From positions 1 through 32,719 of the forward strand of contig JAHBMJ010000842.1 of NCBI GenBank assembly GCA_018398765.1: a stretch of DNA of 32,719 nt. Reading direction: 5' to 3'. The notes beneath the pieces were generated by a model. That model was not told the DNA's origin. It saw only the letters and a program-made list of their open reading frames with translations, and did no database searches. This stretch comes from Chromera velia (taxonomy: Eukaryota; Sar; Chromeraceae). Positions within the stretch are counted from its first letter, which is position 1; every line of letters begins with the position of its first letter. The translations under genes were made by a program, and so were the position numbers. Shown one piece after another: positions 1-20,881 of the stretch.

Positions 1-639
1 GGGGGGGGGGTCGTATTACGGCACCAGGTAACCTGCATGAAGGGAACGACACATGTTCCCTGCCGGTTGGAGAAAAAGGCCAGGTTTTCTATCATTTCTC
101 AGTCGTAGATCGAAAAACCCTCATAGATGGAACCGAGGGAGGTTGTGAAGGGTGTGTGTGTGAAAATGGGGGGGGGGGAGGGGATCTGCCCTGCTTTTTG
201 GCTTAATTTTGACATGTCGCACTGGTAGCAATTTTCTAGGCTCTCTCGCCGTGTCGCTGCAGCTAGCGCTGCAGTTTTGAATGACGATGCAACTAGCGAT
301 GCAATTGATATGAAAGCAGTCAAATGTTGTTCAAATAACTCAATTGACTAGTATTAAATGATCTAGGTAATGATGATCAATTTCTATGTTTTTTTTCTTT
401 GCATGCATGTCAACAATAAATTGCTCCATCATGCGCCGAGTCGGTTATAAGGTCAAACTAATAACATTTATATACACGCGTCAAACAAAAATCTAGACAA
501 AAAATCTATACTTAAGGACTATCAATATCTGTCATGCAGTGTTAGTTTCAACTTAATTCTTATTTTTTCTAGAATTCTTTATATTCAGTAAAGAAAAAAA
601 AAAGCTTCAAAAAAATTAATTGATATCATTATTATCATA
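1..639. other. AT-rich intergenic DNA without a recognisable gene
   Basis: The window opens with a run of ten G and has a second G-rich run near 168-181. From about 330 it becomes strongly AT-rich with scattered homopolymers. The only longish open frame here (99-323, minus) is low-complexity and resembles no protein family I know. I see no splice-like exon, RNA gene or promoter signature. The initial G run may be a contig edge or sequencing artefact. Confidence 0.6.
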
Positions 640-1105
640 CCCTGCAAGTTTGAGTAATTTATATGAGTAATTTAAAGTAATTTAGAGTAATTTAGCTTAG
701 TAATTTAAAGTAATTTAAAGCAATTTAGAGTATAATTTAAAGTAATTTACATAGAATAGTAAACTAAAATATATTAAATTTGGAAAGCTAAATTACTAAG
801 TTTGGTGAAACTTTGGAGGTCAATTTCTAGGTCAATTTCTCATAAACCATAAAGAGTTAGATATTCAAACTAACAGTGCTTATAGCTCTTATATGGACCT
901 ATAAGCACTGTTAGTTTAAAGGTCTAAGTCTTTATGATTCACGAGAAATTGACCTCCAAAGTTTGACTAAATTATTAATTACTTTAGTTTACTATTCTAA
1001 ATCACTTTAAATTACACAAAAATGCTTTAAATTACTTTAAATTACTACGCTAAATTACTCTAAATTACTTTTAATTACTCATCTAAATTACTTAAAGTTG
1101 CAGGG
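640..1105. mobile_element. Fold-back (MITE-like) element 1, AGTAATTTA type
   Basis: The two halves are imperfect reverse complements around a centre near 892. Near the axis, 868-885 pairs with 899-916. The outer ends are CCCTGCAA (640-647) and TTGCAGGG (1098-1105), exact reverse complements, and both are flanked by TA (638-639 and 1106-1107), as expected of a 2-bp TA target duplication. The left arm repeats the word AGTAATTTA about every ten bases and the right arm repeats TAAATTACT. There is no coding capacity, so this is a non-autonomous DNA element or a palindromic repeat of unknown mobilisation. The termini match those of the element at 8885-9404, which is the best argument that they are real element ends. 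Confidence 0.65.
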
Positions 1106-1300
1106 TACTGATCAATTGTTGTTCATTCTAATTAATCACTTTTTGTACACTGGAACTATGATGATGATGATTGAGGGTTAAATCCTAGATTTAGCGACAC
1201 CAAATCCCAAGCCACTAGCAAGGCTTTGAGGACAACCCAGAGCACACATTCATGGGAGGGGGGGATGAGGAAGCCTGCATGCCAATCGGATCGATTCGCC

Positions 1301-2128
1301 TCAACTTGCCTTATCGACAGAATGGACCTTCTTAAGACAGTCGGCTATAGCTTTGGAACCGCTTCTAGGCAGAATTTTGCACAACAGCAACACCATATCC
1401 TTCATTTTTTTCTCATTATCAGAAGTGCCCCTCCTAGTTGCACCTGCAACACGTTGTGCGATCTGTATTCTTATGTCAATGGGTGCTTTCTGCTTCACAA
1501 TTTCGTACAGTTCTTTTAGCCTGTTCCGTTCCCTTTCTATGTCCTTACATTCCGTCAGAACATGAACCTCATCTTTGATCACATGCGAGGGAGACAAACA
1601 TTTATCGCACAGCCGTTCCGGTTGGGTTCTATCTATATGCCCCCCTGTGAGAGCCCTAAAAAGCGTACGGAAGCCTGCGGAGGACTGTAACAGACTCTTT
1701 GGCAGAGGTTCAACACTGCACTCTATCATTTCACTTCTTGGACGCTATTTCCTTTCACTCAGAAGGTGCATGGCCAAACGCTGTCTGGACGGATTCTCTG
1801 ATTGGAAAGGGGAGAGATTCGCAAGGTAGGGAAAAATTCCGTCTCTGTCTCTAACGTTTCTAGTTTCTTCTTTCAACCAGTCGGACAGCCAGGCACCCTC
1901 TACGATCTTTTTTGCCGCCCTTTTCTTTGTGCCCTTGCCCTTCCCTTTAAACTTGTTCCCCACCGTGCTTGGCAATGGAGGCCACAAAAGGGAGCAATCT
2001 AATGGAACGGCCAGCCATTTTACTGTCTTAACGAAGGGTTCACATGAGCCAGCCAAGCACTCATTCCACACTGCCTGGGGTAGAGCACGGTCGATCGATT
2101 TGATGCATTGGATGAAGCCCCCACTCAA
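1301..2128 (-). pseudogene. LINE ORF2 C-terminal part with CCHC-like knuckle
   Basis: This continues the reverse-transcriptase frame without a frameshift and is broken by TAG at 1745-1747 (and by TAG at 2231-2233 just upstream). The last 140 residues contain CDKC followed by a His and Cys in the pattern C-x2-C...H-x4-C (CDKCLSPSH...HVLTEC), a knuckle often found near the C-terminus of LINE ORF2 proteins and thought to bind the element RNA. The tail is Lys/Arg-rich, which fits nucleic-acid binding. The natural terminator appears to be the TGA at 1301-1303. Confidence 0.65.
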
Positions 2129-2449
2129 CTTACCAAGTAGAGAACTGAATGGCTCGAGAGAGAGAGAGAGAAGGGAAGGCGAAACAAAGGAGTGATGGAA
2201 GAGACCAAAACAACATCGAACAAAACGTAACTATAATGCATCGAGGTAGGCAACATCTGTCTTTCTCAGCGGGATCGTTTCCAGTCCATACAGCGCGACT
2301 GGCAGCCAGAGGGCCTTGAACAACGTAATTTTAGAAAAGGGAGAAACAAAGCCCAGAGAAGAGAGAGTACCAAACACCGCCCCCAAAGCCTTCTCTGCCG
2401 CCTCAATGCGGGCTTCAACTGTCTTACTAAGGTCCCCGCCCTCAAAAAC

Positions 2450-3437
2450 CTAGTTGCCCAAATACTTATATTTATTCACCGCTTCCACTGGTCTACCTTC
2501 ATAAAGAAAAGGGGTCCGGGGCACTAGGTCGAGGTGGGGGGAGGAGAGACGCATAACTTTTGTCTTCTTTAAATTCACCTTCAGGCCGTGCTCCTTACAA
2601 TAGTCCTCGAGGCGAGACAGGCGTTTCTGCAAGTCAGAAGCACTGTGAGCAAACAGAACAAGATCGTCAGCGTATCCGATGCTTTCGATTAAAACGTCAG
2701 ACAGTCTGACAGGAGTCTCTCTATCAGTACCCCCAGCCGAGCTTTGATTCCTGTTTTCATTATTGGAGCTGACAGACTTATGCAGATTGTTGATAAAAAG
2801 AAGAAAGAGGAGAGGAGAGAGAGGATTGCCTTGTTTTACTCCTCCGCCTTCTGGAAAGCATTCTGTTGCCCCATCCACCCAAGCCTTCAGCTGACTATAC
2901 ATCGAATGAATTATCCAAACATCGGCTTGGCTTACTCCTTCCTCCCTGAGCCTCTCTAATATTTTGACCTGAGGAACTGTATCAAACGCCTTGCTGAAAT
3001 CAACAAACGCGGCAATCAGAGGGCTCTTCTTCTTTTTGGAGCTTAGAATTAACAAAGACAGAGCAGCGAAGGCCTCCCTTGTCCCTACCCCCTGTCTGAA
3101 ACCGAGCTGCCTTTCGTCAATTTTCACCTCCTTCCTGATCTTAAAAAGTCTTTGAGTCCATCAATAAAGCAAAAATCTTACTCAAAAGCCCCACAATGTG
3201 GATCGGGCGCCATTCGTTACAGTCGAAACTCGGCAGGCCCTTGAGGACGGGAGCAATGCGCAATACATTCCAGCGTTCAGGCCAAAAAGAAAAAAGGTGA
3301 AACAAATTGAAAAAGACAAAGAGCAGCAAGCGGAAGAGAGGAGAAAAACCAAAACATAACGAGAGGTGACAGGGGCCAACCCCATCTAAACCCAGCGCCT
3401 TCTTTGGATCAATTCCTTTCAGTGTTTCCTCGATCAT
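2450..3437 (-). pseudogene. LINE reverse transcriptase domain (frameshifted)
   Basis: The first part (3437-3141) carries the fingers region, with a KALGLDGV segment (the usual K-x2-G-x-DG-like motif) and EWRPIHIVGLLSKIF. The second part (3127-2450) is in another frame and holds the catalytic palm: FVDFSKAFDTV (motif A Asp), GGGVKQGNPLSPLLF (motif B), IGYADDLVLFA (motif C, YADD), LKVNLKKTKVM (motif D) and YKYLG (motif E). The frames switch around a short T run near 3143, consistent with a one-base slip. All catalytic Asp residues are still present although the reading frame is broken. The frame ends at TAG (2450-2452) but homology-like sequence continues straight beyond it. Role if intact: target-primed reverse transcription of the element RNA. 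Confidence 0.85.
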
Positions 3438-3599
3438 GTGTATAGAGAAGGCGGGCTGAGAAGGAGGGGAGAAGGCCAGAGCAACAAGTGCAGGCGGAAG
3501 ACCAGGACCGTCGAAGACCCCTGCCCAAAACTGAGTGAAAGAAGATGCAGTGGATTTATTATCCCCTCCCCTCTGTGTTTTGATTTTCCTGTTCCATTG

Positions 3600-3880
3600 C
3601 TAAACTTTCGAGGGGTTAACTGCTGCTTCTCTAGCTAGTCTCTCTGCTGTCTGTTGCTTGAGCTTACTCCTTTTTGCTGCAAACAGTCGAGCTCTTTCCC
3701 TTCTTAGTTTGACATATTCTTTTCGCAGAGGGTGGGAAAGGTTTGGGGCATGTTTTGCCTTTTCCTTGGCCTCCTTCACCTTCAAATTTATCAGGCGGCA
3801 TTATGGGTCCCACCAAGCCTGATGGGTGCTCTGCTTTCTCCCAGACTGTCTTCTCTTCTTAGATACCTTTCCCCCATCTA
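3600..3880 (-). pseudogene. LINE inter-domain linker (endonuclease to RT)
   Basis: Between the endonuclease and the reverse transcriptase the minus strand encodes a very basic stretch (KEAKEKAKHAPNL..., LRRERARLFAAKRSKLKQ) preceded by a WWDP motif, resembling the short WW-containing segment usual before LINE RT domains. The frame equals that of the first RT part. It is interrupted by TAA at 3801-3803 just after WWDP and by TAG at 3600-3602. The preceding endonuclease segment is in a different frame, so a frameshift lies near 3880-3900. Confidence 0.5.
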
Positions 3881-5444
3881 CTACTGCACCCACTTTGCTG
3901 TCTGCCAGCCTTTCTTCCCAGAAAAGACCCAACTGTTCCAATTGCTCAAGATAGGAAGCCTTGTGAGAGAGTTGGGGGAGGGAGCATTCTGAAGGGGAAG
4001 TGGTTGTGGGGGAGGGGGAGGCGGGTCAGAGGGAGGTGGGATAGGGGGAACAACTTGATCTCCTTCATGCAGTTCGTTTACCCCTCTGTCGAACAGGCCG
4101 GGAAAAACCGTCTCAGAGAATGGCAGGACCACTCTGGCGAGAGGAATCATTTCGTCATCCGTCACCAGGGAAGTTCTATTTACAGTGAGGAGAGGGGGGA
4201 GAAAAGAGAAATTCTTTTCGCCCGTGGGGGCATGTAGAGGATCAGAAGATATAGGGGGAAGAGATGAGTCAAGAAAAAAAGAAAGAGAAAGAACAACATG
4301 TTGTGGGGCAAAGTCAGCTTCCAGGTTTGAAGTGGCAGAGAACCAGGCTGTCAAAAGAAAAGGATCTACAAAAAAGTGATCAATCGCTGTTGTTTCTTCT
4401 CCTGTTTTAAAAAAGGTGCACGGGCCCAGAAAGGAGACATCAACACCCAGCCTCTCACATTTCAAGGACAGGCCGTGGAGAGGAATTAAGTTAGAGCGTT
4501 CACAAAGACGGATCAGCCAATTCCCTTACTCGTCAGGTTGACTACCATGGCTGCAGGCTGACAATCGAGAGGGCTTACAAGCATCAACTTCGTTCTCTTC
4601 TCTGCTTTCATCAGTGGGACATAGCATTCTTTCCCAAGTCAGCCCTTCCGGCACCCGAGTCCCCAGCTTGCCGTTCATGTCCCCAACCAGGATCCGCAAA
4701 TCCTCGAGAGGTACCTGACATAGTGTATCGATCATGCCCTCTCTCTCTCTGTCTCTTAGCTCCCTGTCTCTCTGTCTCAGGTCAGACCCTCTAGATAGAA
4801 AGTAGATACCGAAAACATGGAGGACTCTCGTGGCTGACTCCCCTCCTTCTGAGGGAGAAGGCACACTCACTGACAAACGGACCAGATTTTGACCCACCAG
4901 CTCCCACCTTAGCTGCAGTTCATGAACTAAAGAATTTCTGACTAGGATGTATACACCCCCTGTCCTTGCTTCCCCGATGGTTACGGCTTTCCTTCTCAAC
5001 CCTTCTGCTTTGATTTTCCTTCTCAACCACTCAAAGTGATCGAAATTATGCCTTGTGTGAGTGGATGTTCTTACGGGTATGGAGGGGCACTTCATTTCAG
5101 TTAATACCACAATGTCTGCCTGGCAAGCGGCCAGCCACCGCTCGAGAGCTTTGCTTCGTATGCGTGACCCCAGCCCCCCCACATTTACCGTTTTTATTAT
5201 GAATTTCCTTCTTCCTGAAGCTATGAGACCAGACCTTACGTCGTAAGAAGGAGAGAAAGCATTGTGGGAGGGTGAGGATGCAGAAGGGAAGAGAAGGGAG
5301 GGGGGAGACGGCTGAAAGACCCATTGAGAGATTGAAGAGGTTGCGGAGGGGCACACCGATGGGGCAGAGGCAGAAGCACATGCAGAAGCCGAAGCAAAAG
5401 AGGAAGAAGAAAAAGAAACAGAAGCAGCAGCAGCAGAAGAAGAA

Positions 5445-5488
<44 letters not shown>

Positions 5489-5507
5489 AGAAGGAGAAAA
5501 AGAAGAA

Positions 5508-5552
<45 letters not shown>

Positions 5553-5638
5553 AAAGAAGAAGAAGAAGAAGAAGAAGAGGAGGATGAGGGAGAAGGAGAA
5601 GAGGAGGAGGAGGAGGAGGACGACGATGACGACAACAC
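3881..5638 (-). pseudogene. LINE AP-like endonuclease with N-terminal poly-serine tract
   Basis: After about 70 mostly Ser residues and a low-complexity Ala/Ser/Pro stretch come the motifs of the endonuclease/exonuclease/phosphatase fold: IIKTVNVGGLGS (N-terminal strand), DIVVLTEMKC (catalytic Glu), RILVGDMNGKLG (GDxN) and, past a TAA at 4526-4528 in the same frame, TAIDHFFV (the D-H-x-F/V motif). The usual final SDH motif is not clear; the corresponding stretch reads FAPQHVVLS. In LINEs this domain nicks target DNA to prime reverse transcription. The C-terminal end is Pro-rich (PPSDPPPPPPQPLP). The stop and the weakened SDH motif mark decay. Confidence 0.75.
5395..5632. repeat. GAA/GAG trinucleotide microsatellite
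   Basis: About 230 bases of almost uninterrupted AAG/AGA/GAG triplets. On the minus strand, in the LINE frame, they give the poly-serine tract; on the plus strand they give poly-Lys/Arg/Glu frames that should not be called as genes. Confidence 0.9.
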
Positions 5639-5640
5639 TG

Positions 5641-6061
5641 CAACCAGAGGGGGGGGAAGGTTGGAAGGAGAACCTGAATAACGCTTTTGTCGGTCTGAAA
5701 CTTCACACTTTCTGAGTCTGCATACTTCCCTGCGACCAGCCTAGAAGGCATACACGAGACGCTTCTCGTCTTTCTTTAGTTGATCTGCGCTTATCCATGC
5801 GAAGTCGGAAGCGTCCCTCCTCCAAAAATCATATTCTCTTCTCTTTCCCTTTCCGCCCCTCACTGTACGAATTCTTGCAGAAGAGCGTGAGCTTCCATGT
5901 ATGAGGGCTCAGTCCTCCTCGTCCCTGTCATCAGAAGATCTAGAAGAAGAGAAGGAAGAAGCAGAGACAGAAGAAGAGGAACAGGGGGAAGGCGAGGACA
6001 GAAAATCACGCTCATGTCTCCTCCTACGGCGTTCTCTTTCTTGTTGTCTGTCCTCATGCAC
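5641..6061. other. LINE 5' flank, no supported gene
   Basis: Purine-rich, low-complexity sequence continues to about 6000 and only short Leu-rich or Arg/Glu-rich frames are open. It could contain the 5' UTR or a decayed ORF1 of the LINE, but no zinc knuckle, RRM or coiled-coil signature typical of ORF1 is visible. Confidence 0.4.
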
Positions 6062-7034
6062 AACTATAGTGTGCCACAATGAGAATTTCTAAAACCTTTT
6101 GTGTCACAATGATTTATGAAATAATAACTGTGATTTTAAGAACTTTTGACTGATTCAATTAAATCATACTTATGTGTAATAAAATTAGTTGTAAATCGCG
6201 GTTTGACACGCGTTGAGGGGCGGCGTCATAGCCACTGTATGGACTGCACGGGGTAGAAGCGAGGGAAGCAGAGGGGCATCTGATCAGTGCAGTGATAATA
6301 TCTTTAAAAGAATGATGTTCAGTAAAAGGGATAGCAGCGCATTGGCCTCTTCTAGAGGATGCTCGGGCCGCAGCGGGGGGCTTTCAAGAGCATTGGGTGC
6401 GCAGCAAAAAAGAAAGCACGAAAGCGATGCAGAGGAAGGAGACGATTCTCATTGAATGAATGAATGAATGAATGAATGAATAAATGAATGAATGAATGAA
6501 TAAATGAATGAATGAATGAATAAATTATGAATGACCAAGGCAGTGAATGAGTGAGGGAGTGAGTGAGTGAGTAAGTGAGTGAGGTGAGTGAGGTGAGTGG
6601 GGTGGGTGGGTGAGTGAGGTAAGTGAGTGAGTAAGTGAGCGAGTAAGTGGGTGAGGTGAGTGAGGGAAGTGAGTGAGTAAGTGAGTGAATGAGTGAGTGA
6701 GTGAGTGAATAAATGAATGAATGGGTGAATGAGGTGAGTCTGACCTTCAACAACTCTGAAGATTTCAAGCTAGTGGCTGTTAGTCACTTTGAAAGTCTAG
6801 GATCACTTCAAAGTTTGTCTAACAATTTCATCACACCTAACCTACTCAAACTATTTCATCACACCTATTGTGACACAATTATTTGTGTCACTGATACTAG
6901 TATATAGGGTATTGTGTCACACCTTGCTAGCTCTGGCGACAGATAGACATAGCGGGAAGGCCCTAGGGCGGAATATATCAATCAACTTGAATCAATCAAA
7001 TCAATCACAATTTTAATTCTGTCACACTATAGTT
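6062..7034. mobile_element. Candidate TIR element carrying GAAT/GTGA tandem arrays
   Basis: The left end AACTATAGTGTGCCA (6062-6076) is the reverse complement of TGTCACACTATAGTT (7020-7034) with one mismatch. TGTCACA-type words recur in both orientations inside each end (near 6100, 6870-6930 and 7020), as in sub-terminal transposase-binding repeats. The interior is a GC-richer piece (6200-6450) plus long tetranucleotide arrays, with no transposase. Target duplications are not obvious. A chance pairing of simple repeats is the main alternative. Confidence 0.4.
6454..6735. repeat. (GAAT)n and (GTGA)n tandem repeats
   Basis: GAAT units with occasional AAAT run from 6454 to about 6530. GTGA/GTAA/GTGG variants run from about 6544 to 6735. 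Frames through this region give monotonous Ser-Leu-Thr-His or Ser-Phe-Ile-His peptides and are not genes. Confidence 0.9.
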
Positions 7035-7826
7035 TTAGTGTAACTTTTTGTACACGTTTTTTAGGCTACAGGTGTATGTATATGATTTTAAAATATTTTA
7101 GGGTTGTATATCTGAGCCCTCAGCTAGTATGAGCCAGAATATTCTTCAAATAAGTATATGTATATGATCCATAGATAGAGAAACTAAGCACAGAATCAAG
7201 CAACGTATTAACATGGATAAGAGAGTCTAGAAGAGAGTTAAACACAATAAAACCGTGCGCATGAATGAAGTTTTTCAATCAATGAAGACTATTTTGTGGA
7301 TCTCGAGAACTAGCTCAGGAATCGTGATCGAAAAGAAAGGTTCAGTGGGAAAAGGGAAAAAGCAGAGAGCATCACGTATGTACACCTGCATGATCTGGTC
7401 AATGATTGAGCACGTGCGTCTTCTACGAGTCTCAGGGTGCGTTTAGAAGAGAAAGTAACTTTCAGAAGTCAGACACACAACTGACAGTACACCGCTTAAT
7501 CGGAGCTTGTCAGCTTCCACAACCGCTCATGATCTCTGAATCAAGACCATACCAACCCGTCGGACGAGAACAAAGCATTTCCACACGTTTTTACAGGCAG
7601 GCATCCATGTAAAGCAGAAACAAAGTGAGAGCAAGAGGATACAAATTCGGTATCAAAGCAGCATATCAAAACACAAAATACAAAAAAAGACTGAATCACT
7701 TGCACAAGCATGAAGGTCGATTGAAGATTAATGAATGAGAAGAAGCTCTTTCAGATGGAAGAATTGAATTCGTTTCTGTTTGATTCAGATATGTGGCAAA
7801 AAACAGGGCTACCCCCTACTCAGTGG
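7035..7826. other. Intergenic DNA, no supported gene
   Basis: Moderately AT-rich sequence with only short open frames lacking recognisable domains. It may hold decayed upstream parts of the transposase-like remnant at 7863-8339, since that frame opens abruptly after a stop near 7827, but I cannot identify them. Confidence 0.4.
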
Positions 7827-7862
7827 GTCTGAGGGATTCCGAGAAACAATAAAAAGATTAAA

Positions 7863-8339
7863 TTGGGGGCTGCAGATGTTAGACACGTTTTCCCTCGCGT
7901 GGTTGAGTTTATGGAAAAAAGGTGCCCGGACATTTTTGTTGCAGAGAACCCTCCTGCTTGTTCTTTTTACTTGCATTCGTGGGTCCTTTCTATGTTGACA
8001 GGTTCAACCATGGATGAGAAACTTGCAGAGCTGAAGATGGTGATAAAGACTTGGCAAGACCTTTTTTGCAAGTCTTATGGGTGGGCGGTCTCGAAGACTC
8101 ACTTCTACTCGCACTTTCCGGTGTGGATCCGCCGGTTTGGGGGGTTGAACACAACAAAATGCTACGGCTTTGAATCGTATCATAAGAAGGTTTGCAAACG
8201 TTTTGTCCTACGGGGGGGACGTTATTCATATGATCGTTTTATTCTGGAAGATCTGGTTTTTGCGTGGTTGTGTAAGAGAAAGAAAGCCATGCAAACATAT
8301 TTTGCCGATATGTCACGCCGGGAGGGACTTCGAGCATGA
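7863..8339 (+). pseudogene. Transposase-like remnant (K-x-H...FE..HK motif)
   Basis: A 158-residue open frame with no clear start codon (first ATG near 7911). It contains KTHFYSHFPVWIRRFGG followed by YGFESYHKKVCKRF. This spacing, K-x-H-x3-H-x-P...G...FE-x2-HK, is reminiscent of the C-terminal region shared by several eukaryotic cut-and-paste transposases (KDZ/Plavaka-like and related groups), where the line usually reads K.H...HYP...GP...FE..H..FK. The fragment is far shorter than any such transposase and has no catalytic DDE segment, so it is probably a relic. No terminal inverted repeats can be tied to it. A short host exon is possible. The family call rests on a motif remembered from alignments. 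Confidence 0.35.
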
Positions 8340-8884
8340 ATAACACTATGAAACTACACAAAACTTATGGATTTATGAAGTTCTGTGCAGCCACAACTCT
8401 ATTCTATTACAGCATTCTTTCTTTCCACATATATTTTACTTTCTAGGAGAAGTTATAAAATTGGTAGTTCAAAAAAAAAAATTGGGTGTTAATTTTCTTA
8501 AAAATTGGGAGTTAGTCTTAGAAAAAAATTGGTAATTCCCAATTTTTAGGTGACTCTAAGTGTTCATAAATTTTGTTCCTAGTAATGAATTAGAGTCTAA
8601 TGACTGCAGCTAGAGACTAGTGAGCCCCTGTCTAGTCCATACACAAAATTTTAGCTTCAAACTCTATGGACTTCTTTCACTAAACTAGGTACCAATTTTT
8701 CAAAATTGGGAGTAGTAGTACTACCAATTCGACGCCCAATTCAACTCCCAATTCATTAGGGATAATTGCAGATGAACGGCTCGAAACGAGTTCCAAAACC
8801 TCCCAACATCCCATCCTCCTCCTTTTTCTCTCCTCTTTTGTTTCCTTTGTATCACTCCACACCCTTTCATACTCTTTAATTCTT
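8340..8884. repeat. AT-rich gap with reiterated AATTGGGAGTT words
   Basis: From about 8455 to 8760 the word AATTGG(G)AGTT and its complement AACTCCCAATT recur in both orientations, with an inverted relation between the two ends but poor pairing in the middle. The style (one short word iterated in opposed arms) resembles the fold-back elements at 640-1105 and 8885-9404, but I see no CCCTGCA termini. No gene is visible. Confidence 0.45.
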
Positions 8885-9404
8885 CCCTGCAGGTAGCTAG
8901 GATTTTGCAGGATTTTAGCCCAGGATTTTAGCGGATTTTAATCACGGGATTTTGGCCAGGATTTTAGTAGATTTAGGCAGATTTTGCCCAGAATTCTGCC
9001 GGACTATTTCTCCAGGATTTTAGAATCTAAAATCCTGGCTCTAGGGATTATAAAGACTAAAATCCTGGATCCTAGGATTTTAGAAATGAATGCCAGGATT
9101 TTACGGGATTATATCTTTCCTGTAAAACCCCGTATAATCCCGTAAAATCCCGTATAATCCCGTAAAATCCCGTATAATCCCGTAAAATCCTAGCCTAAAA
9201 TCCTAGGAAGAGGCTAGGATTTTAGCTTTCTTCCAGGATTTTAGATTCTAAAATCCTAGGTGTAGGGATTATATTTTTAACGTTAAGAGTCTGGCAGAAT
9301 CCTGGGCAAAATCCGCTAAAATCCACTAAAATCCTGGCCAAAATCCCGTAAAATCCGCTAAAATCCTAGACTGAAATCCTGCAAAATCCTAGCTACTTGC
9401 AGGG
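8885..9404. mobile_element. Fold-back (MITE-like) element 2, GGATTTTAG type
   Basis: The left end CCCTGCAGGTAGCTAGGATT (8885-8904) is matched by the reverse complement of the right end (9385-9404) with one substitution, and the arms stay similar for roughly 120-130 bases. The inside is an iterated AGGATTTTAG word on the left and CTAAAATCCT on the right, including four near-perfect CCCGTA(T/A)AATC copies around 9128-9190. Flanks are TT on both sides, a possible 2-bp target duplication. It has no coding capacity. The shared CCCTGCA ends link it to the element at 640-1105. Confidence 0.65.
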
Positions 9405-9985
9405 TTCCCTCTCTTTCTTTCTCACTTTTCTAAATCTCTTAAATTGATGCAGCCCATCTAACTCTCTTCCTAAAGTTTGACTCAAATTGTCTCCCTTTTT
9501 TCTTTTCCATTCTCTTATAGCAAACATATAGAATTATTTTCATAGCAAACATTCGGTTCAGCTGGTCAGGCTAAGACGAAGCTCTAGACTAAGCTCATAG
9601 AAACTTGAAACGTACAATAGAAAAGTCTAGTTATAATATGTCTAAAAAACGAGATGTTTTGATGTCCAATGATTTTTTGTGCATTGTAGCAGTATGTATT
9701 TCAGAACTAGTCTTATAATTTGACCTTGATTAAAATTATCTCAAATGAACTTGAACTTGAATGCATCCTATAGCATATAAGCCCTCCAAGTCAACTGTAG
9801 CTAGAACTGTACTAAGCTCACATTGTTTCACTCTAATCACCAAAATCTAAAACACTTCACATGCATGTTTAAGTATGTTTTAGCTGTTTGCAGCTGCAGT
9901 GCAACATAAATTTGCATGAAAATCGCTAGGAAAATCGATTGCATGCATGAAACCTGTAGTCATTTTTTTTCAACACAAGGCAGCT
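9405..9985. other. AT-rich 3' intergenic region
   Basis: A non-coding, AT-rich stretch between the fold-back element and the stop codon of the MORN gene. It contains scattered TGCATGC words (for example near 9861 and 9943). No gene or clear polyadenylation element can be assigned. Confidence 0.5.
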
Positions 9986-11683
9986 TCACTGCAAAATACA
10001 TGCCTTGTTTTCGGCTTCAAAATTTACCCAGGTCATAGAGGCTGCCCGTCTCTGGAGCACGTGCATGGGGCTGTCTCCCTTCCCTTCTGACTTGTACGCC
10101 TGAACAAAATCCCCGTCTCTCCACTCTCCATCCCACACGACTCCGTCACAAGACCTCAGAGTTCCTCTGCCATTCCACCTGCCAGCTTTCCATTCACCAA
10201 CATATTGGTACCCGCTTTTGTACTTTGCAGTACCGTGCCCCTCTACGGTGCTGTCTCGCACATCCCCTGTATACTCATCTCCGTCCTGTGATCGAAACAC
10301 CCCCTTCCCCTTCCATTGGCTCTTCTCCCACTCCCCTTCAAACACATCACCATTTACAAATGTGTACGTGCCGGTTCCCTGCCACTCCCCTTCTACCCAC
10401 TGCCCCTTATACACATCATATGCAACCGCATACTGCCAATATTGTTGCATACCCTCACCATTCCGTTTCCCCCCCTGAAGCTCCCCTGTGTATATATCGC
10501 CTTCTGCAGAGCGGTACGTCCCCCGTCCGTGAACTGTTCCGTCTCTCCACTGCCCCTCATATCGGTCTCCTTGCCGATTGCTGTAGACACCCCACCCATG
10601 GGGCCTCCCTTCTTTCATCTCGCCTTCGTAACCACCAGCAGCAGCTGCCATGGTCAGGGAAGTCATCGTTGTCAGGGAGAGAATCGAACAGCCAGAGGTT
10701 CTGGAGGGGAGACCGAATGCGATCGGGTCGGGTTTTGGTGGCGTGGGCTTGTCGGCTGGCTTTCCTTGGTCTGCCTCTCTCGCACAACGGCTTTTCGCTT
10801 TGCGTTCTACATCGTGATTCCCCTTCAGAGGAGACTTTTCATCGCTTTCCATGCAAGGACCGTCAATATGTCCCTTCTCTCTGTCTTCTCCATGACTTTC
10901 CCTCCTTCTCTTTTCGGCACTCTGGCTCCGTCTATCCTCCTTCACCTCAAAACGAAAATCGCTAGACAGTCCCGCTCGCCATTGTGCAGAACTCAGCTGG
11001 ACTGCCTGTAAGCCTATCTTCATCATCTGCACCATTTCATGCAGCTGCGCAGTACGGGTACCCGGGGGCTGAACCGGGGCCTTTTTGGGGCACACGGAAA
11101 CGGCTGCCTGATGCGAAGCGTTGGGGTCCTCTGCAGGGGGGCTTTCGTCCCCCCCAAAGCCCGACGGCTGGTCCACAGGGTCTGCACGGCGACTCGTGGG
11201 CGCGCTATCATGCAAGTGGGGTCTCTGAACCTCTCTGGCGGGTGGGCCGTTGGTATGCGAAGTCCTTCCCTCCCTGCAGCCTGAGCCACAGGGAAAGTCT
11301 GAAACAGAGGAAATTTCGTGAGCCTTGCGGGCGAAAGAGATTATTTCACCAAGCTCTCGGACGGTGTTGCAGCCAGGAGACAGAGAGCTGCCTGAGGAAT
11401 CGATCTGGGAAACTGGGGTGGCTTTTTCTGCTGCTACTGAGGAGACTGTAATACTCCGGTTGAAGAAAAGCTCTCTCTGTCCTGATTGGGGCGAAAAACA
11501 GTCCTCATGCTCGTCCCCGCCCCCGCCATTCGAACCCTGAGGCTCTGGCAAGAATTCCAGGGATCCACCCCCTTCATAATCAAGGTGACCGCCGGTGTCT
11601 CGGTCATTCCCTTCTTCCGCATCCTGGTGGACTAATGCACCGTCCACAGATTCTGGGGCATCGATGATTTCTCGAAAATTCAT
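9986..11683 (-). CDS. MORN-repeat protein
   Basis: From the Met at 11683 this frame gives 565 residues. The N-terminal two thirds are low-complexity, rich in Glu/Arg/Ser/Pro, with basic KEDRRSQSAEKRRRESHG-like stretches and no obvious fold. The C-terminal part (about 10,640 down to 10,090) contains about eight MORN units of roughly 23 residues, with the typical Y-x-G-x-W/M...G-x-G-x(3-4) pattern (YEGQWRDGTVHGRGTY, FEGEWEKSQWKGKGVF, YVGEWKAGRWNGRGTL). MORN arrays usually bind membranes or scaffold partners at the cortex or cytoskeleton of alveolates; no catalytic domain accompanies them here. The frame is open beyond the chosen Met up to 11830 and overlaps coding-like sequence in another frame (11604-12322), so this may be the last exon of a longer gene. 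It ends with TGA. Confidence 0.8.
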   Translation of the reverse strand: MNFREIIDAPESVDGALVHQDAEEGNDRDTGGHLDYEGGGSLEFLPEPQGSNGGGGDEHEDCFSPQSGQRELFFNRSITVSSVAAEKATPVSQIDSSGSSLSPGCNTVRELGEIISFARKAHEISSVSDFPCGSGCREGRTSHTNGPPAREVQRPHLHDSAPTSRRADPVDQPSGFGGDESPPAEDPNASHQAAVSVCPKKAPVQPPGTRTAQLHEMVQMMKIGLQAVQLSSAQWRAGLSSDFRFEVKEDRRSQSAEKRRRESHGEDREKGHIDGPCMESDEKSPLKGNHDVERKAKSRCAREADQGKPADKPTPPKPDPIAFGLPSRTSGCSILSLTTMTSLTMAAAAGGYEGEMKEGRPHGWGVYSNRQGDRYEGQWRDGTVHGRGTYRSAEGDIYTGELQGGKRNGEGMQQYWQYAVAYDVYKGQWVEGEWQGTGTYTFVNGDVFEGEWEKSQWKGKGVFRSQDGDEYTGDVRDSTVEGHGTAKYKSGYQYVGEWKAGRWNGRGTLRSCDGVVWDGEWRDGDFVQAYKSEGKGDSPMHVLQRRAASMTWVNFEAENKACILQ

Positions 11684-14658: not shown

Positions 14659-16209
14659 ATGATCTACGCTGGACGTCTTCTGAAGAGAGGGCACCTTCCT
14701 TCTCTTTCCTTTCCTAAACGTTGTTGTGAACGTACAAGTTCTCCCAGCGCATCATTTCGAGCATGCCATGACTGGCGTTTGTCCCGAAAAGATGAGAAAG
14801 TATTTCCCATGTGGAGTCCTGCTGCTGCACTTCGCAGCCCTGGTGGGAGGATCATAAGCAAAATACCCTTCAATTCACTGCGGGCCAGTGAAAGCTGTCC
14901 GCTTCGCCTCCTCTCATGGAAACCTGCAGCTGCCGTGAATCAGATGGCGGGCAGTCGTGCGGATGAACAACGCCGTTTGTTTTGGACGATAGGGGACCGG
15001 GGTACCGACTCTGCGGATGCGGTTGTCTCTGACACTGCCCCCCAACAAGCGGAGTCAAAAGAACACAGAAAGGGGACAGACTGTCGTAAAGTTGTCCCAA
15101 AAAAGCAAATCGCAGGAAAAACCAACGGCTTTAATCGAACAAAAAAAGATGGAAGTGAGTCCAAACATCGATATGTCTCTGCTGGTGAACGATATGCAGT
15201 AGAGAGGAGAGCCATTCAGCTGCTTCGTGGCAGTATCCACCCAACCAGCAAGTTCATCGGGGTTGAAGAGCCGATTGACCCTCTCCCACCATTCGCAAAA
15301 GCGGATCTGGCCGTGCGTCCCGCGGGGTGTACTGAAGACCTGTGGCTCCCTGTACAGGTCAAGTCAAGATCCTACCTTTGTAGTGCTGCACCCACGGCCA
15401 TCTTTCGGTGGGTTTGTGGCTATCAGGGAATGCCAGTTGTCTGTGTCGCTCTGAACGAGGGACAGCCCGATCCTCCAATGGTCTGGCAGTTCTCCGGTGA
15501 TGACCTCAACAGATTCCGGGGGGGTGGATCTCTGCGAATTACGTTAGGCGGCAAGCATGACACGACAGAAAGACGCTGCAGCTTTCACCACAATTGCAAC
15601 TATCATCGACACATTGGAGAGCGTCTACATGAGATTTGGAAAATGGCGCGGGCCAATTGCTCTTCTTACAAACTTCTCAGTATGGACATCATCAGGTCTC
15701 AGCTGAGTCCGAATCACCTTGCAGAAGAGACAATGTTCCAGAAATGTCGAGAGCTCTTCGCAAAAGTGCCAGGTGGAGTAGAAATCCGATTGGCTCCATG
15801 TCCGACCCTCCCATATGACGTTGAGGTTCGTCTCAGAGAAGATCCACAGGCAGAATGGAAGAGAGGACAGTTGAAGAGCTCTAGCGTAAACAGGGGTGTG
15901 CATAGCCGCAAGAGTGTAAATGCAAAATTTCGTCCGTACGACGAAGGGGACTTTGACTTTCTTTTGGCAAGCGGCCCCCTCTGGCGCTACTTCTACATGA
16001 TTCCACAAAGCGTTCTTACGCAAGAAGGAATCATATCTTCAGTACAGGGCGGACGAGAGTGTTCAGGTGTAACGCGTTTGACTTTAGACTTCTCCACACC
16101 GCCTGCTGCTCCACACAGGACGCGAGCGTTCCGGCTGCTTCAGTGGCGACTAGACTCTTTGGACTTGCAAGCATCCGGTGAACGGATCACACAAATTTTG
16201 CAAAACTAG
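14659..16209 (+). CDS. Protein with two PD-(D/E)XK nuclease-like segments
   Basis: A 516-residue open frame ending in TAG. The first ~100 residues are basic and Ser-rich with few acidic residues and could be an organellar targeting sequence; later Met codons (residue 51 at 14809, or residue 96) are alternative starts. Segment 1 (about residues 175-285) has GERYAVE, then KADLAV (Asp216), then LPVQVKSRS (Gln233-x-Lys235) followed by a hydrophobic strand. Segment 2 (about 355-460) repeats the order: AEETMF, PYDVEV (Asp387), KRGQLKSSS (Gln404-x-Lys406), then YDEGDFDFLLA and YFYMIP. The E...D...(E/Q)xK order and the final Y-x-Y-x-I/V-P strand resemble small PD-(D/E)XK endonucleases of intron-homing or resolvase type. 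Both copies have Gln at the usual Glu/Gln position. Function is unknown: DNA repair, organellar nuclease or mobile-element origin are all possible. An intron cannot be excluded but none is needed. Confidence 0.6.
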   Translation: MIYAGRLLKRGHLPSLSFPKRCCERTSSPSASFRACHDWRLSRKDEKVFPMWSPAAALRSPGGRIISKIPFNSLRASESCPLRLLSWKPAAAVNQMAGSRADEQRRLFWTIGDRGTDSADAVVSDTAPQQAESKEHRKGTDCRKVVPKKQIAGKTNGFNRTKKDGSESKHRYVSAGERYAVERRAIQLLRGSIHPTSKFIGVEEPIDPLPPFAKADLAVRPAGCTEDLWLPVQVKSRSYLCSAAPTAIFRWVCGYQGMPVVCVALNEGQPDPPMVWQFSGDDLNRFRGGGSLRITLGGKHDTTERRCSFHHNCNYHRHIGERLHEIWKMARANCSSYKLLSMDIIRSQLSPNHLAEETMFQKCRELFAKVPGGVEIRLAPCPTLPYDVEVRLREDPQAEWKRGQLKSSSVNRGVHSRKSVNAKFRPYDEGDFDFLLASGPLWRYFYMIPQSVLTQEGIISSVQGGRECSGVTRLTLDFSTPPAAPHRTRAFRLLQWRLDSLDLQASGERITQILQN

Positions 16210-16465
16210 TACTCAGATGTTTGAAACAAAGCCAAATAAAATATGCATAAATTCAAGCATTGACAAGCATTATATGTTGTACTATGTCGCACAGTGTTGC
16301 ATCAAGTGTGACGGTTGTTGAAAGTTAATCGTTGATTCGTTGTTTCCTGTTATATAACGATTGATAAACTGATAATATAATGTTGTAAAGATGTTGCACA
16401 TTAGAGTACAAGCTAGTGTTTTATAGCATTTGCACAGTGCTATACAAAAACTATTGTCAGTGCAC
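16210..16465. other. 3' flank between the gene and the LTR element
   Basis: AT-rich, non-coding. An AATAAA word (16236-16241) about 27 bases after the TAG could act as a polyadenylation signal. The last four bases (GCAC, 16462-16465) form the left copy of the retrotransposon target duplication. Confidence 0.5.
16462..16465. other. Target-site duplication GCAC (left copy)
   Basis: GCAC directly precedes the left LTR and recurs as GCAC at 19812-19815 directly after the right LTR, as expected of a 4-bp staggered integration. Confidence 0.7.
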
Positions 16466-16942
16466 TGCTTTGTCCCCCCTGTCCGGCCACCTTATGGCGT
16501 CCAGACAGAAGGTAAAGCGAGGACAAGAAGCTTAGGGAAGATCTAGAGAAGGAACGTGAGCAACACTCACTCAAGCAACACTTTACAAGAGGTTTGGCTC
16601 TATATTAGTTTAAGCGCTAACGCGATCTCCCAGTGGGATTCCAATCAGCTGGATGCATTCTATCATGCACAGTTTCTACTCATTCCTCTCTCTCAGACTC
16701 TCGATTTCTCTTGATCTATGGTAAACAGACATCAGACTCAAACGATGCTATCCGTTGCTTGAGTAACATGTTGCATGCTTGAATACGAAGGTCAGACTCG
16801 ATCGATTTCAACAATTTTGATCGACGCGCGCGACACGTACGAAAAAAAGCGCAGCGGTGGAGCCTGGCGTCGGCACGCGGGCTCATTCAGATATAGCGCA
16901 TGTGAGGGTCCAGAGGGCGGCGCCACAGGGTAGGACTCCACA
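16466..16942 (-). repeat. LTR, left copy (3' LTR of the element)
   Basis: 477 bases matching 19335-19811 except for about a dozen substitutions, most of them clustered near 16852-16875. The plus strand begins TGCTTTGTCC and ends GACTCCACA. It carries GATCGATT/AATTTTGATCGA palindromic words and a GATATAGCGC stretch that might belong to promoter sequence. Confidence 0.88.
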
Positions 16943-16944
16943 GA

Positions 16945-16952: not shown

Positions 16953-19315
16953 GGCCACAAACAAGAAAATCGCGTCCCCGCGATCAGCCAGACACATTCA
17001 AGCATGTGTAGAAAGGGAAAAAAGGCGAGCAAAAGAACACGATCAACCAGATATAATGCAAACCCATACAACCAATAAAACACTTCAAAGCATGTAATCG
17101 AAGGAATAAAATCTCGAGCGTCCTCGCACCATGACAGATGCAAGGAAAAGCAAATCAAGACAACAGATATCAACGAACGAACGGCCGTGAACGGCAGCCG
17201 GTCAGACCTATCAGAGGGAGACGCCTGGCGGTATACCGTCTGGCTTCACGCAGATGCTCGCATAGAGACAGCTAGCTCCATCAAGGCCCCCATCAACTCC
17301 CATGCTACGAGGGGGAGAGGCGATGCCCAGAGAACCCAGAGGGCCTCCAAAGCACCGGCATCCCCCTGCAGGGAGAAGATGTAGAACGGACACAGAGACA
17401 TGCATGGGCTGTCCCCTCGCTTTTTCTTCTTTTTTCATTGAACTAGATATCTCTTTAAAGATTTCTTCTCCTTTTGCTCCTCTTCTACTCATTTTCTCTC
17501 CGCCTCTTCCAGTCTCTTTTTCTTAAATTAAGAAGGAAGCCAGGGATAACCCGAAACATTTTAAAGCAGCAGAAAGTGAGAAGGAGACAGTGAATGAAAG
17601 CGCCCCCTCGACGTGTGCTCGTGCTCTCAGCCACATGAGGGGTCTGACTCCCAAGCCACACGCAAAGAAGAGAAGCTGAGAGAGAAGAAAGGTCACTCTT
17701 CTAAAAGGAGCTCCAGAAGTTCCAAATGCACGGCACATGCGGCGCTCGGCTTGTCGCTCTCGCAGTCCGCCTCTTTGATGCTCAGCTTTGCAATGAGCTC
17801 ACTCCCCCCCCAAGTTCAGTGCAGGGGTGCAAGGGCGGTCACAGGCAGTCGCGGGCATACGCGGGCATAAGCATATGGCGGCGACAATCAGGCAGTCCTC
17901 TGCCCACGTTTCATATGCAGCTGACGTAGGGGTAGGCGATCGACTTCGAGTTCTTGTTGATAGAAGGGCTCGGCCGTCTCGTCGAGCATAAATACATTTC
18001 ACGCGTGTCAGCAGCTGCATAAACGGAGGGAAGGAAGGGACCGGACATATTGCAGACTGCCCCGCTGGTTTCTTTCTATCTCGTCTCTTCTTTCTGTCTC
18101 GTTTCATCCCTTTGCTGCTCCTTTTGACACATGAACTCTCAACTTCAGACAAAAGATGTTCCAGTCACACTCAGTCGCTAGTACTTCGCATGCTCTCGGC
18201 CAGCCTCGATTCGATTCGCCCCCCCTACCTCGAAGCAACCCCCCTCTCCCCCTCTTTCCCCCCCTTTCCCTCCCTCTCCCCCCTTTCCCATTGTCTCCCC
18301 TTCTCCCCCTTCCCCCATGACCCGCTTTGCCCTTCCCGATCCCTGTTAAAAATTTTGCCGGCGCCGGCGAGAGATGAGGCAGCAGCTCAGACTGAGCTGC
18401 TGCTGCCGTGTGCCCTACTCTGTCTCTCAGTAAGTCTGCCGCGACCCTTCTGCCTCTCTTGCCGTCAAGGGCAGGCTCGATATCATTTTGTACCCCTTCC
18501 TTACTTCCCCCTCCTTCCTACTCCAGGCTCGCCGCATCGGGGTCCCAGAGCAGAAGGCCTTCCCCGGCTGGCACACCGGCCGTCACTGCGTTGTTCCGTG
18601 TGGTACGCCGCCACCTGTCCCTTCTGCCTGTTTAACATGTATGCAGAGTCTCGCGCACCCGATCGAACCGCCACTCATTGAATGATCTACGCGATAGCCA
18701 GACAGCAAGAAACGACAAGCTCTCTCTCGGAAGAAAACGGTAGCATTGCAGACACATGGAGAGGCAAAGGGCGTCTTCTTGTGTTTGGACGCTGTCGGAG
18801 GACCAGTCCAGACAGACCTAGACACGCTGGAGGTGTTTGCAAGCCACGAAGGTGGTCGGCCTCTCACAGACAAGCAAGCAACCAACAGCAAAGACAAGTG
18901 AAGGTGATCAGCCGACACCCATCTGGAAGACGGAGACAGTTACAGAATCTAAAGGCATAAGACAAGCACTCTACTGGCCGTTTGAATTGCGATCTGCTTG
19001 TAGGCGGCGGTCTCAATGAAGTCAAGCTCCTCGAAAGTCCAAGCAACACCAAGCAACGTCTCCACCATCGGCTTTGGCGACCTCCAACGATCTTTGGGCT
19101 CTCCACCCAAGGACAAAGGCAAAGTCCAGGATCGGACTTAAAAGAGATCTCCAAAAGAGGATTCCAGGCAGCTTGGGACGCAAGGGGATGCTGAATTCCC
19201 CTATTCACAGTCTTTGCCTGACCATGCCCGTATCGTTGCAATCGGCTTTCAACTGTTGCATAAAAGGAAGATTTGATCTCTATCACAGAAGGTATACAAA
19301 AGTCGACATTCATCG
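16953..19315 (-). other. LTR element interior, apparently non-coding
   Basis: No frame on either strand shows gag CCHC, protease, YxDD or integrase motifs. The longest frames (for example 18112-18681 plus and 18864-19325 minus) are compositionally odd. A C/T-rich tract (18195-18320) and two strong palindromes (18357-18368 and 18381-18401) are the notable structures and could serve RNA packaging or dimerisation. Confidence 0.6.
18357..18401. other. Paired palindromes inside the LTR element
   Basis: GCCGGCGCCGGC (18357-18368) is a perfect 12-bp palindrome. AGCAGCTCAG-A-CTGAGCTGCT (18381-18401) is a perfect 10-bp inverted repeat with a one-base centre. Both would form hairpins in the element RNA. 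Function is unproven. Confidence 0.55.
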
Positions 19316-19331: not shown

Positions 19332-19334
19332 CAA

Positions 19335-19811
19335 TGCTTTGTCCCCCCTGTCCGGCCACCTTATGGCGTCCAGACAGAAGGTAAAGCGAGGACAAGAAGC
19401 TTAGGGAAGATCTAGAGAAGGAACGTGAGCAACACTCACTCAAGCAACACTTTACAAGAGGTTTGGCTCTATATTAGTTTAAGCGCTAACGCGATCTTCC
19501 AGTGGGATTCCAATCAGCTGGATGCATTCTATCATGCACAGTTTCTACTCATTCCTCTCTCTCAGACTCTCGATCTCTCATGATCTATGGTAAACAGACA
19601 TTAGACTCAAACGATGCTATCCGTTGCTTGAGTAACATGTTGCATGCTTGAATACGAAGGTCAGACTCGATCGATTTCAACAATTTTGATCGACGCGCGC
19701 GACACGTACGAAAAAAAGCGCGGCGGCGGAGCCTGGTGGCGGTACGCGGGCTCATTCAGATATAGCGCATGTGAGGGTCCAGAGGGCGGTGCCACAGGGT
19801 AGGACTCTACA
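19335..19811 (-). repeat. LTR, right copy (5' LTR of the element)
   Basis: Near-identical to 16466-16942 (offset 2869 throughout, without indels). In minus orientation this is the 5' LTR and would contain the element promoter. The plus strand ends GACTCTACA, followed at once by the target duplication GCAC (19812-19815). Confidence 0.88.
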
Positions 19812-20881
19812 GCACACAATCCGGATGTCTGGTGGTTTTGATATAATGTTTGCATGGTGATTGAGAGATACATTACTAGAAAAAAATGTGAGTGTTTTGT
19901 TTTTCAAGTTTTTTTTTCTTAATTTGAATTATGCATATGCGGGGCTTACCCATTTCTCTAGCCATTTCTAGACCCATTTAAATAGATTTTTTTTTAATTG
20001 AATCAAAATTAACATATGTTATTAAAAAATTTTGTACCATGTACTTTTAATTTTGAATATTTCTTTGAAAATATCATGCTATGACATGAGAGCCTAAATC
20101 TAGACCTGAATCAATCCTTTGAATTAAAAATATTCAAATCTAGAAATATATATCCAGAAATATTAATTCACTATATGAACTATAATAAAATTGATTACAA
20201 TTAGTTACAACTTCATATGTCTGTCTCACATAATTTTATGACATAAATTGTAACATAATATTACGGGCTGATAGCAATGGCGTATGATGATGATGATGAA
20301 TTAAGTCTGCAACAGAAGGAAATGAAGGAGGCCCGCAAGGAGTCTTTGCACGCTTGTCTACCCATCAGTCTCCTAAAGTCAGTCGTGCTGCAATTAATTT
20401 CGGAACGCACATTCCGGACATCATGGCACTGCGGCCCACAATCAGAAATTCGATAGATGAGTCTGTGCAGACCAGCAGTGCGCAGGAAAACATCTGAGCA
20501 GTCATTTTTCTTTTTTGTTTTTTTTGTCTCTCTTCTGATCGGGTACAGGCAAGGAGCGCGTTTGACCTCCTGCAGGACGTCTCTTTTTCTCTCGTGACAC
20601 GGACATCTTGCAAGTCAACAGCTCTTCACCGTAAAGCGAAAGGACGGGGGGGGTCAACAGATTACTTTCAGAACAAATTTCAAGATTTATTACCATACGA
20701 AATTCTCTCATGCCAACAGGCCTGTACGTCTTTTTGTCGGAAATATGGATGGAGCAGCAACGGTGCTGTGCCCCCCCCTCCCGCGCAGCCAACCAGCTAG
20801 GCCGGGAGGAGGGAGGGGGCGGAGAAAGGAATCAAAGCCAAATCAAGGGTACCGAGAGGTCGGCGTCCTTTCTTTCTTCAA
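19812..20881. other. AT-rich intergenic DNA, no supported gene
   Basis: The strongly AT-rich part (19870-20260) is followed by a (GAT)n microsatellite at 20286-20300 and mixed sequence to the 3' end of the secreted-protein gene. Frames at 20365-20800 are short and overlapping, with no domain. The ATG/GAT microsatellite resembles the one at the LINE 3' end and may mark another element's tail. Confidence 0.45.

Follow-up and report, generated by a model that had tools for sequence, protein, structure and literature searches.

Two near end-to-end palindromes (elements 1 and 2, Table 1) lie in the 32,719 bases of contig JAHBMJ010000842.1, deposited under Chromera velia and hereafter called the window. 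Both start and end with the heptamer CCCTGCA, are flanked by identical dinucleotides, carry short iterated words that keep the same register in the two arms, and have no recognised coding capacity. They are probably non-autonomous class II DNA transposons of the foldback or miniature inverted-repeat transposable element (MITE) type from a Chromera-like alveolate. An earlier note on this DNA had given the coordinates, ends and flanking repeats of both elements (TA/TA and TT/TT) and had seen iterated words in opposed orientation in them. All of these were recovered, the words being present in both outer arm pairs, and its proposal of a non-autonomous family with common ends is consistent with our data.

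Ends, arms and words of the two elements

Palindromy is the most conspicuous trait of the elements. The arms of element 1 (638-732 and 1013-1107) are 92% complementary, and those of element 2 are 93% complementary at 8885-8940/9349-9404 and 89% at 8944-9008/9285-9349. Element 1 also has an inner palindrome, which is without exact copies of the arm word. Folded as DNA, and compared with 100 dinucleotide shuffles each, the elements reach energies of -143.6 (element 1, shuffle mean -37.5, z -25.9) and -175.8 (element 2, shuffle mean -54.0, z -28.7), which none of the 100 shuffles equalled in either case. When the window was compared with itself, they were the only inverted repeats with arms at most 3 kb apart at E<1e-3. 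With no limit on distance, the same threshold gave 14 inverted rows over the 32,719 bases, four of them within the two elements and the other ten linking simple-sequence tracts 12-27 kb apart. Stop-to-stop frames fully internal to the elements have at most 31 amino acids (aa) in element 1 and 67 aa in element 2, and a protein search with the 67-aa frame returned one candidate and no match at E<=10. Hence, both elements are short and without recognised coding capacity, as MITEs are, and both consist mostly of long inverted repeats whose arms are composed of short tandem units, as in foldback elements.

The heptamer CCCTGCA occurs at all four ends, where positions 10 and 18-21 are also identical. 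The chance that two unrelated hairpins in fixed register agree over 7 bp at four of four ends is ~6e-5, a value calculated post hoc. The heptamer is itself frequent in the window, with 17 occurrences (nine forward and eight reverse) for 5.0 expected, a number reached by none of 100 shuffles; the ends of the elements make up only four of the 17. There are three convergent pairs of heptamers at 300-800 bp, whereas random placement gives 1.1 such pairs on average, and three or more in 10% of the trials. Two of these pairs are the elements. The third, at 17364-17826, was rejected as an element for want of arms (60/143 identities, against 99/112 and 97/114 for the elements). Near-ends at 8020, 13094, 24805 and 28344 were also discarded, being in no convergent heptamer pair and in none of the inverted repeats with arms at most 3 kb apart. 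Because the heptamer is common in the window and the third pair is armless, it is the arms, not the heptamer, that carry the evidence.

The flanking dinucleotides are identical at both copies, with a chance of p ~0.074 for each and ~0.005 as a product, the boundaries having been set by eye. The TA flanks of element 1 may belong to the palindrome, because TA is its own reverse complement. This cannot be the case for the TT flanks of element 2, because they form a direct repeat.

Table 1. Coordinates of the two elements, their flanks and their internal repeats in the window
Feature	Coordinates	Strand	Details
Element 1, palindromic foldback element	640..1105		466 bp, ends CCCTGCAA..TTGCAGGG
Element 2, palindromic foldback element	8885..9404		520 bp, ends CCCTGCAG..TTGCAGGG
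Left flank of element 1, TA, putative 2-bp target duplication	638..639		sequence
Right flank of element 1, TA	1106..1107		sequence
Left flank of element 2, TT, putative 2-bp target duplication	8883..8884		sequence
Right flank of element 2, TT	9405..9406		sequence
Left arm word array, element 1	653..749	+	AGTAATTTA, <=1 mismatch; starts 14, 27, 37, 47, 60, 70, 80, 102 from outer end
Right arm word array, element 1	996..1096	-	AGTAATTTA inverted; starts 14, 27, 37, 47, 60, 70, 90, 100 from outer end
Left arm word array, element 2	8899..8967	+	AGGATTTTAG, <=2 mismatches; starts 15, 25, 38, 48, 62, 74 from outer end
Right arm word array, element 2	9306..9390	-	starts 15, 25, 38, 48, 58, 70, 80 from outer end
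Inner palindrome of element 1	824..960		arms 824-888 and 896-960, 85% complementary, 7 nt between
One-sided 20-bp tandem array, core of element 2	9118..9190		3.7 copies, 96% matches

The words occupy matching places in the two arms. Six word starts of element 1 (14, 27, 37, 47, 60 and 70 from the outer end) and four of element 2 (15, 25, 38 and 48) are common to both arms, the later ones of element 2 being shifted by a 4-base indel. The words AGTAATTTA and AGGATTTTA have no exact match, on either strand, in the remainder of the window. In register, the arms of element 1 are identical at a rate of 0.957 over positions 14-83 (70 positions), against 0.657 for the best shifted comparison and 0.714 for the best one within an arm. 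The corresponding values in element 2 are 0.925, 0.70 and 0.65 over positions 15-54, a stretch of 40 positions chosen to end before the indel. Since identity in register far exceeds identity in shifted or within-arm comparisons, we infer that the array predates the inverted duplication, or that the arms correct each other and were thus homogenised across the inversion.

The earlier note had proposed that arms grow by local amplification of words. For the outer arms, this is at odds with the register just described: irregular spacing and spacers are equal in both arms, which argues against independent growth of each arm. Clear one-sided amplification is confined to the core of element 2; of the seven + strand copies of the motif CCCGTAWAAT, six fall within 9129-9179, and the - strand has a single copy, at 9098. 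Slippage therefore occurs, though the two outer arms were not built by it separately.

According to the same note, the arms of the two elements are made of different words. The words are indeed distinct, and they may nevertheless be related: at the best rotation in one orientation, 8 of 10 places are the same in AGTAATTTAG and AGGATTTTAG (permutation p 0.049) and 7 of 10 in AGTAATTTAA and AGGATTTTAG (p 0.21), p values that are uncorrected for the two variants tried. Common descent of the two arm words is possible. Mismatches between arms are fewer inside words than outside them, with 3/71 against 7/38 in element 1 (p 0.020) and 1/58 against 3/22 in element 2 (p 0.061), gap columns excluded. 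This is as predicted for binding sites and is only suggestive; the test is biased toward word conservation, because words were picked for their likeness.

Origin of the elements

The scheme that we infer from these traits involves a transposase, its use of the words, the mobility of the elements and an origin for the palindromes. A transposase encoded elsewhere would recognise the CCCTGCA ends, possibly with the iterated words of ~10 bp as accessory binding sites, excise the element and insert it while duplicating 2 bp of the target. Inverted copying of one arm, including its end, word array and inner segment, would probably have produced the palindrome, for example by template switching in gap repair. 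The formation of hairpins may since have maintained the likeness of the arms.

Several observations weigh against this interpretation. Our confidence in it rests on two copies, both in this window, and no autonomous partner with a transposase was found among the window frames scanned. Scans for exact patterns gave no match in the viral_contigs and genome_contigs collections, negatives that say little, since neither collection is directed at eukaryotes and near records may be missing from both. The local alignment of elements 1 and 2 scores 38.5, for a mean of 25.4 (SD 4.6, maximum 45) in 200 shuffles, so that, their ends apart, the two are not clearly homologous in sequence. Finally, the arms also show shorter out-of-register matches, for example of 63 nt (79%), 48 nt (81%) and 27 nt (89%), which repeated words necessarily give.

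The two elements might instead represent unrelated MITE families, moved by different transposases, whose 7-bp ends became alike by chance or convergence. Their interiors are unlike, with a whole-element similarity inside the range of shuffles, the window has more copies of the heptamer than expected (17 for 5.0), and the duplicated dinucleotides (TA and TT) are not the same, all of which fits such an explanation. We nevertheless consider it unlikely in view of the 7-bp agreement at four of four termini and of the layout of the arrays, in which the first words have equal orientation and distances of 14 and 15 bp to the ends, and both of which have spacings mostly of 10-13 bp.

Even less probable, in our opinion, is that the palindromes were produced by template switching during replication or repair in AT-rich intergenic DNA and never transposed, the 2-bp flanks being equal by chance. 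Common ends at loci 8 kb apart would be unexpected from local repair, and the window has no comparable close-armed inverted repeat elsewhere. Yet, template switching between inverted repeats is described as homogenising their arms (PMC8604942), and two equal flanking dinucleotides have only p ~0.005, with boundaries set by eye. As for genes of hairpin RNAs (precursors of small RNAs) or regulatory structures, the great stability of the hairpins folded as DNA is what one would expect of them. However, no Rfam family reached its gathering score in positions 1-10000 of the window, and such an origin would explain neither the direct repeats at the flanks nor the recurrence of identical ends, which makes this possibility very remote.

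Comparison with described transposons

FB of Drosophila is a foldback element. If elements 1 and 2 are non-autonomous transposons of this type, their architecture is of a known kind, because foldbacks with unit-iterated arms (Tm1, Tetris and Galileo) have already been described. The earlier note, which did not recognise them as a described class, is not supported on this point, even if the particular family may be undescribed. Tm1 has foldback arms made of tandem units of 13-15 bp in varying numbers (PMC3169594). Tetris has tandem units of ~220 bp in its arms, and its terminal portions are common to the differently built MITE DAIBAM, one autonomous mover being assumed for both (PMC4079207). 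Our elements resemble these two in their long fold-back terminal inverted repeats with tandem units in the arms. They differ from them by their CCCTGCA ends, by the near absence of a middle domain and by their putative target duplications of 2 bp; those of Tm1 and Tetris, which were linked to Mutator, are mostly of 8-10 bp. Mutator-type elements with such duplications are thus disfavoured, because flank identity is limited to 2 bp here. Galileo, of the P superfamily in Drosophila, has terminal repeats that are long and repetitive inside; it comprises several subfamilies, and the numbers of repeats in the two arms differ within a copy. Its tandem repeats were proposed to contain secondary transposase sites, and are stated to do so for one subfamily (PMC3573991). 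The likeness lies in these internally repeated long terminal repeats and in the unequal numbers of repeats between arms. Galileo differs by a 7-bp target duplication and by terminal repeats that are far longer on average, in a comparison made by description only.

Tc1/mariner elements make a 2-bp TA duplication and have a TA target at every copy. PHISTA and ESTA are also among the elements with TA duplications of 2 bp (PMC12730594). The elements studied here have a putative 2-bp duplication as well, which is TA in element 1, but element 2 is flanked by TT on both sides. The target site of piggyBac is TTAA (PMC10954464), which does not correspond to the TA and TT flanks either. The TT flanks therefore disfavour strict users of TA or TTAA. 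In the CMCT lineages (EnSpm/Plavaka/ESTA), ends are CA..TG in most cases, and TGT..ACA in PlavakaA (PMC12730594). All four ends have CCC..GGG in our elements, and most CMCT lineages are accordingly disfavoured. The PHIS group (Harbinger/ISL2EU; PHISTA) makes duplications of 0, 2 or 3 bp (PMC12730594), a range that includes the 2 bp found here. With the possible exception of PHIS, no compared family fits 2-bp flanks together with CCC..GGG ends.

Among alveolates, Amoebophrya has introner elements, which are introns with inverted repeats of 8-20 nt, direct repeats of 3-5 nt and predicted hairpins (PMC7789003). They share with our elements an alveolate host, hairpin-forming inverted repeats and short direct repeats. 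Yet, they are introns with short repeats, whereas elements 1 and 2 are outside recognised genes and palindromic almost throughout. No transposon with a CCCTGCA end was present among the literature matches listed, as judged by titles and the starts of abstracts; in the Mage paper the heptamer is part of a primer (PMC10954464). Searches for literature linking 2-bp target duplications with a superfamily of palindromic MITEs found none, and the titles and abstract starts of further matches listed describe no such elements.

Genomic setting and significance

The earlier note had suggested that 8455-8760, an AT-rich stretch with AATTGGGAGTT words, could be a third relative. We rejected it as a family member since it has no exact CCCTGCA and no significant similarity to either element. 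The region 8440-8780 scores 36.5/38.5 against element 1 (100 shuffles, mean 32.2, maximum 41.5) and 20/19 against element 2 (mean 22.2, maximum 33), all within the range of shuffles. Its fold (8445-8775) is weak, with z -3.2 and none of 100 shuffles as good, and its score against its own reverse complement (8440-8780) is 47, for a mean of 29.8 and a maximum of 56 in 200 mononucleotide shuffles. Possibly, the stretch is a separate, degenerate inverted repeat. We also dropped a 168-aa frame upstream of element 2 (7833-8339, + strand), which has a putative likeness to the C-terminus of a transposase. Pfam gave one chance-level match there up to E 10 (E 0.22), and none up to E 1 when the longer, 168-aa frame was scanned. 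A 158-aa part of it had no protein match among seven candidates, restricted to proteins of similar length, and the structure predicted from the single sequence was poor (pLDDT 38.5).

Both elements are positioned outside all recognised genes of the window. Four of the ten open frames scanned have Pfam matches (reverse transcriptase, endonuclease, MORN repeats and leucine-rich repeats), and no DNA-transposase domain was matched by Pfam among the frames scanned in sets of 10, 1 and 3, which partly overlap. The protein predicted at 14659-16206 has 14 matches at E<=0.001, 11 of them in Chromera velia CCMP2878 and three in Vitrella brassicaformis; the DNA of the window is apparently nuclear, eukaryotic, and from C. 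velia or a close relative. Other repeats are present. A degenerate retrotransposon at 2450-5638 (- strand) has an endonuclease (Pfam E 4.5e-6) and a reverse transcriptase (E 2.9e-27) in separate open frames, and seems to be of the long interspersed nuclear element (LINE) type. Two direct repeats of 481 bp (16463-16943 and 19332-19812), 97.5% identical and separated by 2.4 kb, read TGCTTTG..CTCCACA/CTCTACA and look like the two long terminal repeats (LTRs) of a short LTR retrotransposon; GCAC at both outer flanks of the pair is a possible 4-bp duplication. Between the two elements, a stretch of ~960 bp at 6067-7029 has 14-bp inverted ends TAGTGTGnCAnAAT (two mismatches), TA on each side and ATTGTGACACAAT-like words internally, and resembles a mariner-type MITE.

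Transposable elements account for about 30 Mb of the Chromera genome (PMC4501334). Chromerids are photosynthetic relatives of apicomplexans, and their DNA transposons are little described in the literature that we found. Elements 1 and 2 might belong to an alveolate group, so far undescribed, that makes 2-bp duplications, has CCCTGCA ends and combines this fixed end with a changeable 10-bp word copied in register into both arms. We think this improbable; if true, families would speciate by swapping the recognition word of the transposase or of a host factor. With one end motif and two sets of words, the pair of elements offers a convenient entry point to the search for the transposase, and can be used to ask whether the iterated words of foldback arms serve as binding sites or result from slippage.

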